Shown here piece after piece: positions 54,509 to 60,604 of a stretch of 64,000 nt of DNA; position 1 is the stretch's first letter, and the number at the start of each line of letters is the position of its first letter. Origin of the DNA: Corynebacterium jeikeium (lineage in GTDB: Bacteria > Actinomycetota > Actinomycetes > Mycobacteriales > Mycobacteriaceae); NCBI GenBank assembly GCA_003955985.1, contig CP033784.1, forward strand, positions 2,046,001 to 2,110,000. The letters run 5' to 3'. The notes under the pieces are model-generated. The model saw only the letters and a list, made by a program, of their open reading frames with translations, had not been told where the DNA came from and did no database searches. Made by a program: the position numbers and the translations under genes.

Positions 54509-55345
54509 TTACGGCAGTGCGCCGATGCGACGGGCCGCGTTGACGGCCTCGTAGCGAGTATGGGCGCCCAGCTTGCGCATTACGGAGCGGAGGTAGGACT
54601 TAACCGTCTCGGCACCGATGCCCATTTCCTCTGCGGCCTCGACGTTGGTGTGACCGAGGGCGACACAGGCGAGAACATCGAGCTCACGAGCCGACAGCTT
54701 GGTGGTCTGCTTGACGCGAACCGGGGTGACCATCTGGTCACAGAGCACCTCGAGTTCCTGGCGCAGCTTCTCGTCATCCACACGGTTAGCGAGCATGCGC
54801 AGCTTGGAGTGCGTGGAACGAACCTGCTCCCACTCAGCGCCATTCATGATGCGGCCGCCCTTACCGTTGCCAGAACGATCCATGTTGCGGCAGGCATCGA
54901 CGACAGCGAGGTCCTGCTCCAGGCAACGGGCGGTCATTGTGACCTCTTCAAGAACCTTGTCCCCCAGGCGCACCGAGGAGTGCACGCCACCGTAGAGCAC
55001 GCCACGGACAAGACGCGAAACGATCACCGGCACGGCGACCAGCGAGTGCAGGCCTTCGTCACGAATCTTGTCGTCATACTCATGGGTAATAACCTTGGCG
55101 CGCAGGTAGTCACTGACACCCACCGGGCGGCGCGTGGCCAACACGCGACCACCGACACCCGCACCCGATTCCACAGTCAGATTCTGCAGGGCCGGAGTAC
55201 GCAGGCCAACCCAGTTGTTGATCTGCATCTTAGAGTTATCGGTGACTTCCGCATACATTGTGACCGGAATACCAGTCGCATTCTTTAGGGCGACCAAGGA
55301 CGACTTAATAACCTCATTGTCGTCCAGAATGCGGTGGGGATCCAT
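54509..55345 (-). CDS. ramA: RamA-type LuxR-family regulator of acetate metabolism
   Basis: A 278-residue regulator. An N-terminal GAF-like domain (about 10-145: VALKNATGIPVTMYAEV, GAGVGGRVLATRRPVGVSDY, ALHSLVAVPVIV-like block) is followed by helices and a C-terminal LuxR HTH (LSARELDVLACVALGHTNVEAAEEMGIGAETVKSYLRSVMRKLGAHTRYEAV, about 212-262). The architecture and length match C. glutamicum RamA, which controls acetate uptake and activation, the glyoxylate cycle and rpf. ATG 55345 is chosen because GGAGGAC lies five bases ahead. CAGGGGGT-type runs upstream (55644) fit RamA autoregulatory motifs. Confidence 0.92.
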   Translation of the reverse strand: MDPHRILDDNEVIKSSLVALKNATGIPVTMYAEVTDNSKMQINNWVGLRTPALQNLTVESGAGVGGRVLATRRPVGVSDYLRAKVITHEYDDKIRDEGLHSLVAVPVIVSRLVRGVLYGGVHSSVRLGDKVLEEVTMTARCLEQDLAVVDACRNMDRSGNGKGGRIMNGAEWEQVRSTHSKLRMLANRVDDEKLRQELEVLCDQMVTPVRVKQTTKLSARELDVLACVALGHTNVEAAEEMGIGAETVKSYLRSVMRKLGAHTRYEAVNAARRIGALP

Positions 55346-55814
55346 CTCGCGTCCTCCTGCGTAACGGGCAAATTGCTTCACTGGCACCCACAGAGGCACC
55401 ATCAGCCTGTGACTTCGCGCCGACTTACACTCCTACGAAATGGCCAACTACCGCTCAGCGGCCACTGACCCTTTCGGGGGCTGTAAACCGTACAAAGTAG
55501 ATAGTACCCTCCGAACGGGTACACCTGCATTAAGGCATCCGTCACACAATCTTAGGAAACAACTAGGTTTCTCTACAAGTACGTAAAGAAAATACCAGGA
55601 TAAATCCTGTCATTAGCCCCGCCTCGGCCGAATAAATACAAGGCAGGGGGTAGCTATTTTTCCGCTAACAAACTGCGTGAATGTTGATAACAGAGGGTAA
55701 TGAACGGCGTTTTACCCCCAATGCGGACATTTTCGAAAAAGACCTTCGCTTATTTTGCATCGTGCGCTATTGTCATACATGCAACAGGTTTTGTTGAGTT
55801 CCACTTTCAATGCT
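55346..55814. promoter_or_regulatory. Upstream region of ramA and of the plus-strand riboswitch
   Basis: About 470 bases without a gene. It must contain the ramA promoter (minus) and a promoter for the cobalamin riboswitch transcript (plus). G-runs at 55475 and 55644-55651 are RamA-like half-motifs. An AT-rich segment at 55730-55790 with TTGCAT and CATACAT may be the riboswitch promoter; the spacing is not ideal. Confidence 0.4.
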
Positions 55815-56062
55815 ACGTCCTCCACGTGGTTGTCCGAAGGTGGTGCACAGCAAACGCAAGAGGGAATCCGGTGCAATTCCGGAACTGTCCCGCAGCGGTA
55901 ATCTGGAACAAAATTCGCCAACGGCACTGAGGTTATTTCAACCTTGGGAAGCGGCGAAAAGTAGGAAAATTGATAATAAGGATCTGCACGTAAGCATTGA
56001 AGCTTGCGGCAGTCGTCATCCCCTTATTGTCGGTCACGCCAGAAAGTCCGAATACCTGCCTG
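55815..56062 (+). ncRNA. Cobalamin riboswitch without a downstream gene
   Basis: A canonical AdoCbl-type aptamer. The core AGGGAATCCGGTGCAATTCC followed by GGAACTGTCCCGCAGCGGT (55860-55899) matches the conserved B12 core, and AGTCCGAATACCTGCC (56045-56060) matches the 3' B12 box. A GGCACT-GCAA-AGTGCC hairpin (56073-56088) may be part of the expression platform. No plus-strand protein gene follows: the next 3.6 kb are the minus-strand cbi genes. It is therefore an orphan, possibly controlling a small RNA or an antisense transcript to cbiO. Confidence 0.9.
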
Positions 56063-56188
56063 ATGCGCCGAGGGCACTGCAAAGTGCCACGGCCACGGAG
56101 ATCGCCCGCGGACAGGTGTGACGTGAAATGGAAGCGAAGAAATGCGACAGCTTCGCCTATATTTCTAGGCCTATTTTCATAGGCATTA

Positions 56189-56212
56189 CGCCCTGCCCGC
56201 GGGCGCTTTTCT
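56189..56212 (+). terminator. Possible terminator of the riboswitch transcript
   Basis: CGCCC-TGCCCGC-GGGCG, then CTTTTCTCATTTTT. The stem is only five bases, but the T-rich tail is good. It lies 130 bases after the aptamer and 60 before the cbiO stop codon, so stopping here would yield an RNA of about 400 bases. Confidence 0.5.
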
Positions 56213-56272
56213 CATTTTTAGCGTGGTTTAGCTGCACATATCGATGAGCTATTCACCAACCAAACCGCTCGC

Positions 56273-57097
56273 CTAAACATCCTCTGGATGCCACACATCT
56301 CGCCCAATCGCCTTGGAGACCACGGGCGCCCAGGGCAAAGCCAATCGAGCATGTTCGACCAACCGTCGATCGGCCAAAATTTCCTCTTTGGAGCCAACTC
56401 GCAGTTTGCCGTCGGCAAGCACTGCTGCCCTATCGGCGAAATTCCACGCGAAGTCGATGTCGTGCGTGGCGACGACGACGGCAGTGCTCTGATCGCGCAA
56501 TTGATTGAGCGTGTGTGCAAGCTTTCGGGTCGCCTGCGGATCGAGGCCGGCGGAGGGCTCGTCGAGAAGCAGCACACGCGGATGCATCGCCAGCGCACCA
56601 GCGAGAGCGACGCGCTTGCGCTGACCATAGGAAAGCTGGTGCGGAACGCGTTCGGCGAGATCGGTGATCTCGGCGGTACCTAGAGCCTGCCGGACGCGCC
56701 GTTCGACTTCCTCGTTCTTAAGCCCCAGGTTGACGGGACCGAACGAGACGTCTGCAAACACGCTAGCCGCGAAGATTTGCTCATCCGGATCCTGCGTGAC
56801 CATCTGCACTGAGCGACGGACCGCATTGCGGCCGTGCCGGGAGTACGTGTAGACGGTGCCGTCAAGGCGGACCTCACCACTATTGGGCTTAGACGCTCCC
56901 GCGAGCATACGCAACAGCGTGGACTTGCCAGAACCGTTTGCCCCCAACAGCGCTAGGCGCTCGCCACCCGAAATTGCCAGATCCACGCCTTTCAGAACGT
57001 GGGTTTCGTCGTAAGCGTATGTAACTGCAGCCGCTTCGACAATGACACCGTTGGCACCATGTACGTGATCAGCGCGATTTTTCCTGCTGCTCGACAT
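56273..57097 (-). CDS. cbiO: Cobalt ECF transporter ATP-binding protein
   Basis: A 274-residue ABC ATPase of the energy-coupling-factor cobalt importer. Walker A is GANGSGKSTLL, the Q-loop is TQDPDEQIF (the ECF type Q-DPDxQIF), the signature is LSYGQRKRVALAGAL, Walker B is VLLLDEPSAGLDP and the switch His is in VATHDIDF. The ATG at 57097 is preferred (two bases after the cbiQ stop, AGGG ahead); ATG 57112 would overlap cbiQ. The 473-residue reading continuing upstream is an artefact of the cbiQ antisense frame. It is the last gene of the cbiMNQO operon. Confidence 0.92.
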   Translation of the reverse strand: MSSSRKNRADHVHGANGVIVEAAAVTYAYDETHVLKGVDLAISGGERLALLGANGSGKSTLLRMLAGASKPNSGEVRLDGTVYTYSRHGRNAVRRSVQMVTQDPDEQIFAASVFADVSFGPVNLGLKNEEVERRVRQALGTAEITDLAERVPHQLSYGQRKRVALAGALAMHPRVLLLDEPSAGLDPQATRKLAHTLNQLRDQSTAVVVATHDIDFAWNFADRAAVLADGKLRVGSKEEILADRRLVEHARLALPWAPVVSKAIGRDVWHPEDV

Positions 57098-57099
57098 CC

Positions 57100-57837
57100 C
57101 TATACACCCCATTTCAGCAGCGCCCAGGCCGCAATCAACGACAAAAGTAATGCACTGGATATCGCGATGAACTTCGGCTGCCTGGGCCGCGAAATCACCA
57201 GTACTTTCATTGCGCTCGGATCGGCGCGCAGCTCGATTCCCTCTTGCATCTTGCGCGCGCGGGTAAAGGCAATTACAAAGAGGCTGGCGGACTGTGCCGC
57301 TACATCTCGGATCATCGCCCGGCGCGTGGAGTGTCCCAAGCGTCGTGCTTGCGCTTCCGTCATCGAGTGTGCGGAGTGAATCAGCACGCCGGTCATCCGG
57401 TAAATCACCTCGGCGAGGTACGTCAAGTATCGCGGCAAGCCGTGCTTGTCGAGCCAGGCAATGAGCTCCGAAATCGGAGTGGTCAGCGCAAAGACCATCG
57501 TGCAGCTGATACCCGCAAACGAACGCATCACAACCTGCGCCATTCGCTGCGGGCCATCCGGCGACCACGCGAGACCGTCGGGAGTAAGCGCTACCAAAAG
57601 CGGAAACGCGCCGACGAGCACAAAAGCCGCCGGTGCCAGCACCATTGCCACATACAGCTTGCGGGGCACTCGGGCTATGTACGCAATAGACCAAGCAATG
57701 ACCGCAATGACAGGCGCAAAGGGAATTGGCGGTAGCGCAACCGCCAGAATCAGCAGCCCACCGAGCAGCAGAATCTTTTCACCCACGTTGCGGCGTGCCC
57801 AAGCGCTGCGCGCCGCTGCAGCTTCTAGCGCATTCAC
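57100..57837 (-). CDS. cbiQ: Cobalt ECF transporter transmembrane protein
   Basis: A 245-residue T-component with about five helices. The coupling motifs that touch the ATPase are visible: ARRLGHSTRRAMIRDVA and FTRARKMQEGIELRADP (the family A-R-G/x motifs). It starts within the stop region of cbiN (overlap ATGA) and ends two bases before cbiO. It couples ATP hydrolysis by CbiO to cobalt uptake by CbiMN. Confidence 0.9.
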   Translation of the reverse strand: MNALEAAAARSAWARRNVGEKILLLGGLLILAVALPPIPFAPVIAVIAWSIAYIARVPRKLYVAMVLAPAAFVLVGAFPLLVALTPDGLAWSPDGPQRMAQVVMRSFAGISCTMVFALTTPISELIAWLDKHGLPRYLTYLAEVIYRMTGVLIHSAHSMTEAQARRLGHSTRRAMIRDVAAQSASLFVIAFTRARKMQEGIELRADPSAMKVLVISRPRQPKFIAISSALLLSLIAAWALLKWGV

Positions 57838-58211
57838 TGCTCTTTCTCGCGCTTGTCCGAACGCGCAGCAGCCTTCCCTCGGTAGAAGCCAATAACGTAG
57901 AACAGGACGCCAGCACCGATAACGGCCTGGAGCGCGAACAGACCCGACTCGACCTCACCCGGCAGCTCGCCGACGAGTGGCTCGAACCACGGCTCGTAGT
58001 TCGGGTCGATTTCCTGAATTGTCTCCGTAGCGGTGGCATCAGTGCCGGCGAACGGCTCCTCGGCGTCGTCGTCCCCGTAGTTGAAGAACAGCGGGAACAT
58101 GGCAATTACGACTACCAGGACAATGAGACCAACGCTGACCCACACGGAGTTCTTCTTCGGCTGGCTAGCTGCCTGTGCGTCGACAATCTGCGCGTTGTTT
58201 TTTGCATTCAT
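57834..58211 (-). CDS. cbiN: Cobalt transport accessory protein
   Basis: A 125-residue protein with two membrane helices (about 21-38 and 88-107) around an extracytoplasmic loop rich in acidic residues (YGDDDAEEPFAGTDATATETIQEIDPNYEPWFEPL). The loop contains the typical CbiN P-N-Y-x-P-W-F-E-P-L and PGEVESGLFALQAVIGAGVLFYVIGF motifs. It helps CbiM take up Co2+. Four bases overlap with cbiQ. Confidence 0.92.
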   Translation of the reverse strand: MNAKNNAQIVDAQAASQPKKNSVWVSVGLIVLVVVIAMFPLFFNYGDDDAEEPFAGTDATATETIQEIDPNYEPWFEPLVGELPGEVESGLFALQAVIGAGVLFYVIGFYRGKAAARSDKREKEQ

Positions 58212-58249
58212 AATCGTGCTCTCTTTCGCTTCTTTTCGCTTGACGACGG

Positions 58250-59032
58250 CTACTGCTTCTGGCCAGATACGGATGCAGCTGCCGCATTCTGCGAAGTGAC
58301 AGATCCTGCAACAGCGTCAGCCGTGGCTTCTGCAGCTTTCGCCTCCAGCGCCGGTGCTGGCGCATCACCGAAGCGGGACAGGAAGCCGAGATCGAGGAGC
58401 TCAGAATGTGCCACGGCCAGCAGGGTGCGCATGAGAATGACGGTGACCAGAGCCTCGATGATTGCCAGCGGAATCTGCGTGATAGCGAACAGGCCGAGGA
58501 ATGTAGCCAGAGCGCCGCCGACACCGCCCGGGTTTGCCGGGTGTGCAAGAGCGAGCTGCACGGAGGTCACAACATAGGTGGAGAGGTCAGCGAAGAACGC
58601 TGCCATAAACACACCTGGTAGTAGGCCTCCGCCGAGCTTTCGAGTCAATACGTAGAAGGCGTAGCCAACCCACGGGCCGACGATTGCCATGGAGAAGATG
58701 TTCGCACCGAGCGTCGTAATGCCGCCGTGAGCGAGCAAGATTGCTTGGAAGAGCAACACGATGGAGCCAAGCAGCGCCATCACCGGAGGTTTGAAGATTA
58801 CAGCACCAAAACCTGTACCTGTCGGGTGCGAAGTGGAACCCGTCACAGATGGAATCTTGATTGCGGAGAGCACGAAGGTAAACGCACCAGCAGCACCGAG
58901 CAGCATGCCGCTACCGGGATGTTCTTTCATAGTGCGCTTGACTTGAATTGCGCCGTGAATGACAAAGGGAGCGGCAGCTACACCCCACCCAATGCAATGA
59001 GTGACTGGGAGAAATCCCTCAGCAATATGCAT
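58250..59032 (-). CDS. cbiM: Cobalt substrate-binding membrane protein
   Basis: A 260-residue S-component with about seven helices. The start is set at the ATG giving MHIAEGFLP because CbiM/NikM need His at position 2, whose amide and side chain coordinate the metal; the upstream ATG at 59044 would add IYIM and bury this end. [30 protein letters not shown] is the conserved second metal loop. The C-terminus has an Ala-rich tail of about 40 residues not needed by the fold. It is the first gene of the operon, behind a B12-box leader. Confidence 0.92.
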
Positions 59033-59104
59033 GATGTAAATCATCTTTCTACGGCGCTATTCACCTCGACAGCACCGCTCGACCGCCAATCCGCGGACGC
59101 GAAT

Positions 59105-59300
59105 TGGATGATTTACAGTCGGTCTCCTGGCTGATGGGCTGAGGAAAGCTTCACACTTCTATTAATGCCTCGCCTCCTTCCCCAAAGGTTTGAGTCCCTC
59201 TGAGTGGCTTCGACGAAGCACCGCAATCGCTGAGTCCATTGTCTGCGTTTTTCGGTTATCACATATAACCGCTGTGCAGATAAGGGCCACAATCGCACCC
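59105..59300 (-). ncRNA. B12-box leader upstream of cbiM, atypical cobalamin riboswitch
   Basis: On the minus strand AGCCAGGAGACCGACTG (about 59118-59134) matches the 3' B12 box (AGYCMGGAGACCKGCC type) and lies about 75 bases before the cbiM start. Farther 5' the region is G-rich and structured (TTTGGGGAAGGAGGCGAGG), but I do not find the standard GGTG-N-TCCGG/CCCGC core seen at 55861. It may be a divergent subclass or a degenerate aptamer. Control of cbiMNQO by cobalamin is typical. Confidence 0.6.
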
Positions 59301-59671
59301 AATCACAGTGGCGAGGGCCGCTGCCTATTCACAAGGCATTCCCGTGCACTGTAAATCACGTCTCAGAATAGTGGATTCTAAGAAACTTTAATGCTCTTTA
59401 CCCTCACAATGGAGGTAAGGACGAGCGAGGCAATGAGACAGCGTTAACGTGGCAATAGCAGGGGCATTGCGAAAATAGCGGTGCGACTGCGACGGCGCCG
59501 GCCGCGGCGACTATGACGGTGGCGGCACCGGAACTGACAGCTTCCACTTCCCTACGCAAGCCATAAAATAGACGAACTGGTCTGTACTAATTGCAGGATC
59601 AGGCGTACACTACGGCTACACGCGAAAACTCATTAGGAAGTCCTCTGTGATTTCCGGAATGGATAAGATTA
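59301..59671. other. Intergenic region ahead of cysK
   Basis: About 370 bases with no ORF. A GC-rich stretch at 59480-59535 has partial mirror pairing. The notable site is the McbR-like operator at 59569. TACACT at about 59606 may be the -10 for cysK. Confidence 0.5.
59569..59584 (+). promoter_or_regulatory. McbR-type operator upstream of cysK
   Basis: TAGACGAACTGGTCTG fits the McbR consensus TAGAC-N6-GTCTA at 9 of 10 fixed positions. It lies 88 bases before cysK. McbR represses methionine and cysteine genes, cysK included, in C. glutamicum. Confidence 0.7.
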
Positions 59672-60604
59672 ATGACTATTTATAACGATGTCACTGAACT
59701 GATCGGCAACACCCCGCTGGTTAAGCTCAACCGTGTTACCGAGGGCCTGCCGGGCAACGTGATTGCCAAGCTGGAGTTTTACAACCCTGCCAACTCGGTC
59801 AAGGACCGCATCGGCAACGCAATTATCGATGCCGCCGAGCGCTCTGGCGAGCTCAAGCCGGGCGGAACCATCGTCGAGGGTACCTCGGGCAACACCGGTA
59901 TCGCGCTGGCAATGGTCGGCGCAGCCCGCGGTTACAAGGTCATTCTCACTATGCCGGACACCATGAGCCAGGAGCGCCGCGTCGTTCTGCGCGCATTTGG
60001 CGCTGAGCTTGTACTCACCCCGGGCGCGGATGGCATGCGCGGCGCTGTCGATAAGGCCAACGAAATCGTGGCTAACACCGACAATGCAATCCTGGCTTCC
60101 CAGTTCGCCAACCCGGCCAACCCGGCTATCCACGAGGCAACCACTGGTGAAGAAATCTGGGAAGCTACCGACGGCAAGGTTGATTACTTCGTGGCTGGTG
60201 TCGGCACCGGCGGCACCATTACCGGTGCTGGTCGCACGCTGAAGAAGCACAACTCGGACATCAAGCTGGTTGCCGTTGAGCCGAAGGCCTCCCCGCTGCT
60301 GACCGAGGGCACCGCCGGCCCGCACAAGATTCAGGGTCTGGGCGCAAACTTCGTCCCAGAGGTTCTCGATCAGGAGCTTCTCGACGAGATCATTGCGGTT
60401 ACCAACGAGGACGCTATTGAGGTCTCCCGCAAGGTCGCTGCAGCCGAGGGCATCCTCGGCGGCATTTCTGCCGGTGCAAACATCAAGGCTGCTCTCGAGA
60501 TTGCAGCCCGCCCGGAGTCCGAGGGCAAGAACATCGTCGTGATTGTTCCTGACTTCGGCGAGCGCTACGTCTCCTCCATCCTGTACGAGGATCTGCGCGA
60601 CTAA
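59672..60604 (+). CDS. cysK: Cysteine synthase A (O-acetylserine sulfhydrylase)
   Basis: A 310-residue PLP enzyme that makes cysteine from O-acetylserine and sulfide. NSVKDRIG holds the PLP lysine at residue 44. [12 protein letters not shown] binds the cofactor phosphate or substrate, and [12 protein letters not shown] and LGGISAGA follow. The start ATG has GGATAAG upstream. It is followed by a terminator and then cysE, the enzyme supplying its substrate, in the same orientation. Confidence 0.97.

Follow-up and report, generated by a model that had tools for sequence, protein, structure and literature searches.

The question raised by this locus is what a cobalamin riboswitch is doing on a strand where no gene follows it. 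In the window, that is, the whole stretch of 64,000 nucleotides that was analyzed, the order is murA, a pduO-type adenosyltransferase gene (a match to Pfam Cob_adeno_trans), ramA on the minus strand, the orphan riboswitch on the plus strand, cbiO, cbiQ, cbiN and cbiM on the minus strand, a second cobalamin riboswitch on the minus strand, cysK and cysE; apart from those tested against Pfam, these gene names are our own presumptive assignments. The gene divergent from the orphan (54509..55402, minus strand) encodes a LuxR-type regulator with GerE and GAF matches in Pfam, which, in keeping with synteny, we take to be RamA; it shares 100% identity with its counterpart in G101 and 99.7% with that in G034, two of the related genomes. 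The cbiO gene (56273..57100, minus strand, with its stop at 56273 and an approximate start) converges with the orphan, and beyond it lie the genes that we take, from their sequences, to be cbiQ, cbiN and cbiM (57100..59044, minus strand). The ordinary cobalamin riboswitch of the cbiMNQO operon is located before cbiM (59100..59368, minus strand; RF00174, 53.3 bits).

As the preliminary description of this DNA had stated, no plus-strand gene follows the orphan: the minus-strand cbiO comes next, and the plus strand has no gene for 3.4 kb, until cysK at 59672. The orphan converges on a gene of related function, cbiO of the cobalt transporter, and lacks a sense gene. The genome has three RF00174 elements, the orphan, the one before cbiM and one before metE, a gene that is kept elsewhere with this riboswitch of its own. 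The idea that the two riboswitches at this locus form an inverted repeat was rejected, there being no long match between them. Two readings had been offered, a B12-controlled RNA facing cbiO and the deletion of an original gene; each proved to be partly right, and they do not exclude one another.

The element had been called a canonical B12 aptamer, and the covariance search that had been proposed as a check bore this out. The RF00174 match on the plus strand (55807-56077, cmscan) covered the full model, 1-189, with 72.3 bits against a gathering score of 31.5 and an E-value of 6.8e-16, and the core (55860-55899) and the 3' box (56045-56060) were located where they had been placed. By the covariance model, the orphan is a real cobalamin riboswitch aptamer; corrinoid binding is predicted. 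The aptamer occupies 55781..56077 of the plus strand, its first base being that of the P1 5' strand, GCAACAGG, at 55781. A -10 element, TATTGT (55768..55773, plus strand), ends 7 nt before this base. Fifteen loci were examined for such an element; G162 had no recognizable P1 start, and in the remaining 14 a TANNNT hexamer was present 7-8 nt upstream of P1 in every case, compared with a mean of 3% at control positions. A sigma-70 consensus scan of 55400-57200 reported no promoter. The L5 loop, UCCCG (55888..55892, plus strand), which forms one half of the kissing loop, was found in 14/14 loci scored and is identical to the L5 consensus in the accessible part of the published description. The L13 motif, CG-N-GGA, was invariant in 14 aligned P13 segments (G180 was not among them). 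By eye, L13 is complementary to L5 when one base is omitted, the third base of CGCGGA in the window; L5 is invariant, hence there is no covariation signal for this contact.

The element occurs in the same setting in seven genomes, designated clade A: G000 (the genome of the window), G101, G098, G034, G153, G001 and G056. In each of them it is flanked by ramA on one side and by the 3' end of cbiO on the other; the cbiM riboswitch also occurs in all seven, that of G056 scoring below the cut-off. The promoter, the aptamer and a 110-nt platform behind the aptamer persist in 7/7 members, while the flanking spacers resemble shuffled sequence. Between the window and G001 or G056, respectively, 72 and 68% of the aptamer and 81 and 79% of the platform were identical. 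The 150 bases upstream were 40 and 44% identical, compared with 44 and 47% for shuffled sequence, and the spacer to cbiO, 44 and 42%. Four-fold sites in the same comparisons were 25-41% identical in cbiO/cbiQ and 60-61% identical in cysK, so that not every gene is saturated. Codon comparisons of ramA that involved G001 and G056 were set aside as an artifact of the codon alignment. Compensatory changes were found in 29 of the 133 predicted pairs of the aptamer and platform among the seven orphans, four of which are near-identical, so that they represent about four independent lineages. A model of the platform, R1, matched 8/242 congeners, the seven orphans and G039, in a search with strict filters in which weak matches are lost. 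The DNA of the element matched 30/201 congeners, mostly in the aptamer core only. The conserved promoter, aptamer and platform, set against spacers that look shuffled, and the compensatory changes argue that the orphan is not a dead remnant. Judged from these comparisons, the orphan has been kept under selection after the loss of its gene, probably as a B12-responsive noncoding RNA facing the transporter operon.

What the lost gene may have been is indicated by three relatives in which metE stands behind a leader of this type. In G174, the leader precedes a complete metE of 790 aa with both MetE domains, and cbiOQNM comes next, facing metE. G039 has the leader and then the MetE N-terminal domain alone (378 aa; L066 3421-4557), the catalytic domain being missing, and cbiOQNM is again next and facing it. 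In G079, the N-terminal frame of metE is interrupted by an in-frame stop, and cysK is next, with no cbi genes there. The metE start region of the mycobacterial type of metE leader is present only in these three and is absent at the clade A locus. R1 gave 62.7 bits for the G039 leader and 18.6 bits (E 0.14) for that of G174; the G079 leader was unlisted. The leaders of G174 and G079 were 82 and 80% identical in the aptamer over about 80 nt, and their kinship with the orphan is suggested by the aptamer, the P13/L13 segment and the position. About 5 kb separate ramA from the leader in G174. Folding of the three metE-type leaders gave no clear switch at the Shine-Dalgarno (SD) sequence.

The frame murA-pduO-ramA...cysK-cysE was found in 18/20 regions; in G163 and G112, which make up the remainder, the contig breaks off ahead of cysK. 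A midpoint-rooted tree constructed from PduO, RamA, CysK and CysE placed clade A together (support 100), next to G174/G163/G112 (86), with G039/G079 outside. The synteny in relatives supports the earlier suggestion that an original gene had been deleted, and the orphan is most likely the leftover leader of metE. The simplest history would be that the leader served metE at this locus and that the stem lineage of clade A then lost metE from it. The preliminary description had taken a recently deleted gene to speak against a function; what was found is an old deletion followed by retention, by which a function is not refuted. The locus offers a traceable case of a regulatory RNA that has outlived its gene, since metE is intact, truncated, broken or absent with its leader left behind, all among living relatives at one syntenic locus. 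G188, G123 and G172 have cbiOQNM after ramA and no RF00174 match facing it. A record labelled C. vitaeruminis, NZ_JVVM01000032.1, carries an element like that of C. amycolatum, and its species label may be wrong.

The RNA behind the aptamer was predicted to fold into one long hairpin (-55.2 kcal/mol, z -3.4) with a 3' arm running into a U-tract. The arms of this long terminator helix lie at 56097..56116 and 56192..56205 of the plus strand, and the U-rich tail follows at 56206..56219, also on the plus strand; the first bases of the 5' arm, 56097-56101, pair with the U-tract. The first 10 bases of the tail include 6 T in the window, 5-8 T across the 11 orphans scored and likewise 6 T in the metE leader of G174. 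Two structures had been noted earlier in this part. The hairpin at 56073 was again seen by eye. A weak terminator at 56189 corresponds to a stem that the scan did report at 56189-56205, but this stem alone is near chance, there being four terminator-like sites in the 1801 bases scanned compared with 2.0 expected, and it is a corner of the longer conserved helix, in which its 3' half also pairs with 56097-56116. An internal hairpin (56134..56156, plus strand) has an 11-nt loop, AAAUGCGACAG (56140-56150), which is identical in all seven clade A orphans. The GACAG of this loop could pair with CUGUC of L5 and would then be a possible second kissing partner.

A small hairpin (56102..56119, plus strand) inside the 5' arm of the long helix is predicted to be P13, with L13, CGCGGA, at 56107-56112. 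Both helices were scored by pair counts. The count for the long helix comprised 8/15 loci, from clade A, a second group of orphans designated clade B, and one metE-domain leader; it omitted G101, G098 and G056 as near-duplicates and G162, G180, G174 and G079 for bulges or lack of a simple match. In these, 95.5% of the cells were paired and nine cells were changed on both sides; 0/500 shuffles came up to this, and slid controls gave 28-49%. For P13, counted in 14/15 loci (alignment A7, G180 out, 10 distinct rows), 86% of the cells were paired and five cells were changed on both sides, which 2/500 shuffles reached. Of the five measures, the number of pairs with both partners changed and that of further pair types were not above shuffles in these counts. 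A C..G pair of clade A is replaced by U..A in most of clade B in P13 and the long helix alike, as expected of mutually exclusive helices that share one strand; G199 breaks P13. The comparison supports the view that P13 and the long terminator helix, which share bases and are both backed by the pair counts, would exclude each other. In the window the fold with the long helix has an energy of -54 kcal/mol, compared with -28 kcal/mol without the 5' arm, and P13 alone contributes -3 to -6 kcal/mol (about -1 in G199). The long helix is so much more stable than P13 that any effect of B12 would have to be kinetic, the choice being made during transcription.

A protein product was considered and rejected because no reading frame is common to all seven clade A orphans; a frame of 27-39 aa starting at 56128 is present in 5/7, without a strong SD sequence. 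No Rfam family matched the post-aptamer RNA of the window (55700-56400, E up to 1), nor that of 11 loci at E up to 1, where five chance-level matches fell elsewhere, nor that of 10 loci at E up to 0.5. The platform was also sought outside the genus by pattern. Eleven matches were found in 201 genomes of the family, two of them in Corynebacterium; the other nine were dismissed as chance because they had no RF00174 match at the gathering score and a reversed control pattern matched seven places.

The model that we favor, which as a whole is possible though short of probable, combines a metE-leader origin, a retained noncoding unit, a two-state switch and a B12-dependent antisense brake on cbiO. 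An ancestral metE would have stood between ramA and cbiO under a B12-sensing leader and would have disappeared from it in the common ancestor of the C. amycolatum / C. lactis clade. The leader would have been retained as an independent noncoding unit, with a promoter, an aptamer and a platform ending in a U-tract about 50-80 nt before the end of cbiO. To this extent the aptamer, the synteny, the metE origin, the conservation and the two exclusive helices are supported by sequence comparison. Without B12, the long helix would form and RNA polymerase would stop, giving an RNA of about 430 nt. The RNA so terminated is predicted not to reach the stop codon of cbiO; measured in five clade A genomes, the distance between the last cbiO codon and the terminator stem is 50-79 nt. 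With B12, the L5-L13 kissing loop would stabilize P13, which would hold the 5' arm of the helix, weaken termination and allow more polymerase to run antisense into cbiO. This would provide a second B12-dependent brake on cobalt uptake, beside the riboswitch before cbiM. Transcription of the element, its response to B12 and the sign of that response, and the antisense effect on cbiO are what we infer; the predicted sign, a stop without B12 and read-through with it, follows from an arrangement of P13 and terminator like that of the activating cobT riboswitch.

The comparison with known systems is instructive for both the layout and the sign. The antisense-acting riboswitches include the cobalamin riboswitch of Listeria pocR and the SAM riboswitch of C. 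acetobutylicum ubiG, and 292 cases have been predicted, the table in the accessible text listing 190 cobalamin cases (PMC9943018). Like these, the orphan sits at the 3' end of a gene of related function, on the opposite strand, and the layout fits the comparison with pocR that had been drawn earlier. The sign does not: synthesis of PocR is inhibited when B12 is absent (PMC9943018, accessible text), whereas the orphan, which appears to descend from a metE leader, has a platform that predicts B12-dependent read-through, the opposite sign. The main text of PMC9943018 contains none of the words coryne, cbi and orphan. A mechanistic parallel is the cobT riboswitch of Alkalihalobacillus halodurans, an activating corrinoid riboswitch in which, according to the accessible part of PMC10653944, P13 is an antiterminator exclusive of the terminator. 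P13 and the terminator share bases and the kissing loop is formed by L5 and L13, as in the orphan. The cobT riboswitch, however, regulates a coding gene and is responsive to cobinamide (PMC10653944), whereas no gene follows the orphan, nearly all of whose P13 lies inside the 5' arm of a terminator with a loop of about 75 nt.

The ancestry of the platform looks like that of the mycobacterial metE platform. In the metE riboswitch of Mycobacterium tuberculosis (PMC11260477, as far as its text was accessible), L13 shares bases with an arm of a long apo helix, as it does in the orphan; the partner of that arm is about 60 nt away, and the kissing loop blocks the helix. There the freed partner covers the metE start region, a translational OFF switch, while the orphan has neither start region nor gene and ends in a U-tract. 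It is conceivable that the loss of metE, together with a U-tract following the former apo helix, made a terminator of what had been an anti-sequestering helix. That the orphan is a natural sign-inverted, B12-activated riboswitch evolved from an OFF-type metE leader, producing, upon induction by B12, an antisense RNA to the cobalt transporter as one of several riboswitch-headed noncoding RNAs arising in Corynebacterium, is a doubtful proposition when all its parts are taken together. Should the predicted sign be true, the orphan would join the published one as another natural riboswitch activated by a corrinoid, and the cobalt uptake operon would have a B12 switch at both ends, with a bearing on how C. 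amycolatum limits cobalt entry.

Riboswitch-headed small RNAs include Rli55 and SreA of Listeria. The orphan resembles them in consisting of an aptamer, a noncoding RNA and a terminator, and differs in that its post-aptamer RNA has no Rfam match and that no trans target was found for the one 11-nt seed tried in five genomes. Among the literature matches listed, mostly without subscription papers, there was no description of the orphan or of any corynebacterial antisense B12 riboswitch, and the accessible text held no mention that one of the three RF00174 elements is gene-less. An RNA-seq study of C. diphtheriae, in its accessible text, listed two cobalamin riboswitches, one of which was not observed. 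C. amycolatum has been described, again in accessible text, as a cobamide producer of the skin, in which the cob genes tested were constitutively expressed, and the species is reported to be resistant to foreign DNA. The orphan is a real and conserved element of likely metE origin and would be a variant form of antisense-acting riboswitch, for which a sign-inverted mechanism is plausible.

Clade B comprises G023, G162, G180, G149 and G199, on the other side of the tree, with orphans that also follow ramA. The helix and the L13 motif are present in four of them and, by eye, only loosely in G180, and the internal part is longer. The folds are not always better than shuffled sequence, z being -2.8 in G023 and -0.6 in G149. 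The orphan is faced by cbiO in 3/5 of these loci, the downstream gene being instead of the integrase type in G149 and cysK in G199, and in G162 and G180 another terminator-like hairpin was seen by eye between the orphan and cbiO. Cis-antisense cannot be the whole story in clade B. The G149 gene, of the rve type (L071 3697-5070), occupies the position at which cbiO stands in relatives. In G199, the orphan (L070 3206-3347) and cysK share a strand, with the orphan about 530 nt upstream, so that it might control cysK.

The weak point of the antisense model is the state in which P13 holds the 5' arm. Two-state folding covered 11 of the 12 clade A and clade B orphans, all but G180, and with the 5' arm removed, a hairpin at or no more than 3 nt from the U-tract was possible in 11/11 (-3.3 to -18.1 kcal/mol). 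In the window it is the local hairpin CGCCC/GGGCG (-7.8 kcal/mol); the 5-bp stem at 56189-56205 is confined to G000, G101, G098 and G034, and the remaining seven folded orphans form local hairpins that vary in shape. Because of these residual hairpins, B12 may not free the polymerase and a stop would be possible in both states, in which case the RNA would be a B12-sensing noncoding RNA and not a valve for antisense transcription. A stand-alone RNA of about 430 nt that ends at the U-tract in either state and acts in trans or by a B12-dependent shape, its position opposite cbiO being incidental, is a possibility that we hold to be somewhat doubtful. The hairpins common to both states speak for it, as do the persistence of the clade B orphan in G149 and G199 without cbiO downstream, the extra hairpins before cbiO in G162 and G180, the invariance of the AAAUGCGACAG loop in clade A and the other long noncoding stretches behind RF00174 within the genus. 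It is opposed by the cbiO-facing position, which is kept in 7/7 clade A members, and by the distribution of the complement of the 11-nt loop, which occurs in five genomes only at the element and at three scattered sites in two of them; for this one seed, tried in these five genomes, there was no shared trans target site. The same local hairpins could also act with the opposite sign, B12 causing termination when P13 holds the 5' arm and low B12 giving antisense read-through, as in Listeria pocR. CGCCC/GGGCG could serve in this way in four close relatives, and repression would be the common rule, given that PMC10653944 calls its activating switch the first of its sign in the accessible text. That version is nevertheless unlikely: the shapes of the local hairpins differ between lineages, the U-tract is abutted by the long helix in all 11 folded orphans, and the competing state ends in the same U-tract and would thus be a poor antiterminator.

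There are two further explanations. The well supported loss of metE at the locus would be compatible with a vestigial, functionless leader that has not yet been erased, a reading already disfavored and very improbable in view of an aptamer and platform conserved far above the flanking spacers, the compensatory changes and the kept promoter. It could also be that the hairpin alone matters, as a shared terminator of cbiMNQO and the orphan, with the riboswitch as a passenger. The helix is nearly palindromic, R1 also matches the reverse strand in G001 and G056, and the scan found no minus-strand terminator-like site between the cbiO stop and the element. A shared terminator would not, however, preserve the promoter, the pairing of the aptamer and L5/L13, and by eye the minus strand has no U-tract after the helix, which leaves this explanation with hardly any likelihood. 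The B12-dependent antisense brake on cbiO remains the reading that we prefer.

RF00174 was matched in 62 of the 201 congeners searched (of 242), and the neighborhoods of 105 matches in 54 genomes were extracted. By inspection, at least eight further matches have no evident plus-strand gene behind them and, after several hundred nt, a terminator-like hairpin. One is in G081 (L046). Three others, group C (L102, L103 and L104, in G173, G068 and G043), share a gene-less stretch of 563-564 nt that is 77-92% identical and closes with a terminator-like hairpin that is strong and symmetric; the gene converging on it is of the GAPDH type (Pfam, tested in G068). Group D (L034, L038, L039 and L040, in G118, G135, G026 and G164) has gene-less stretches of 482-515 nt, 53-89% identical and without an Rfam match, with an inner hairpin around GGUGAAU and a long terminator-like hairpin at the end; in G026, the convergent gene encodes a GNAT acetyltransferase.
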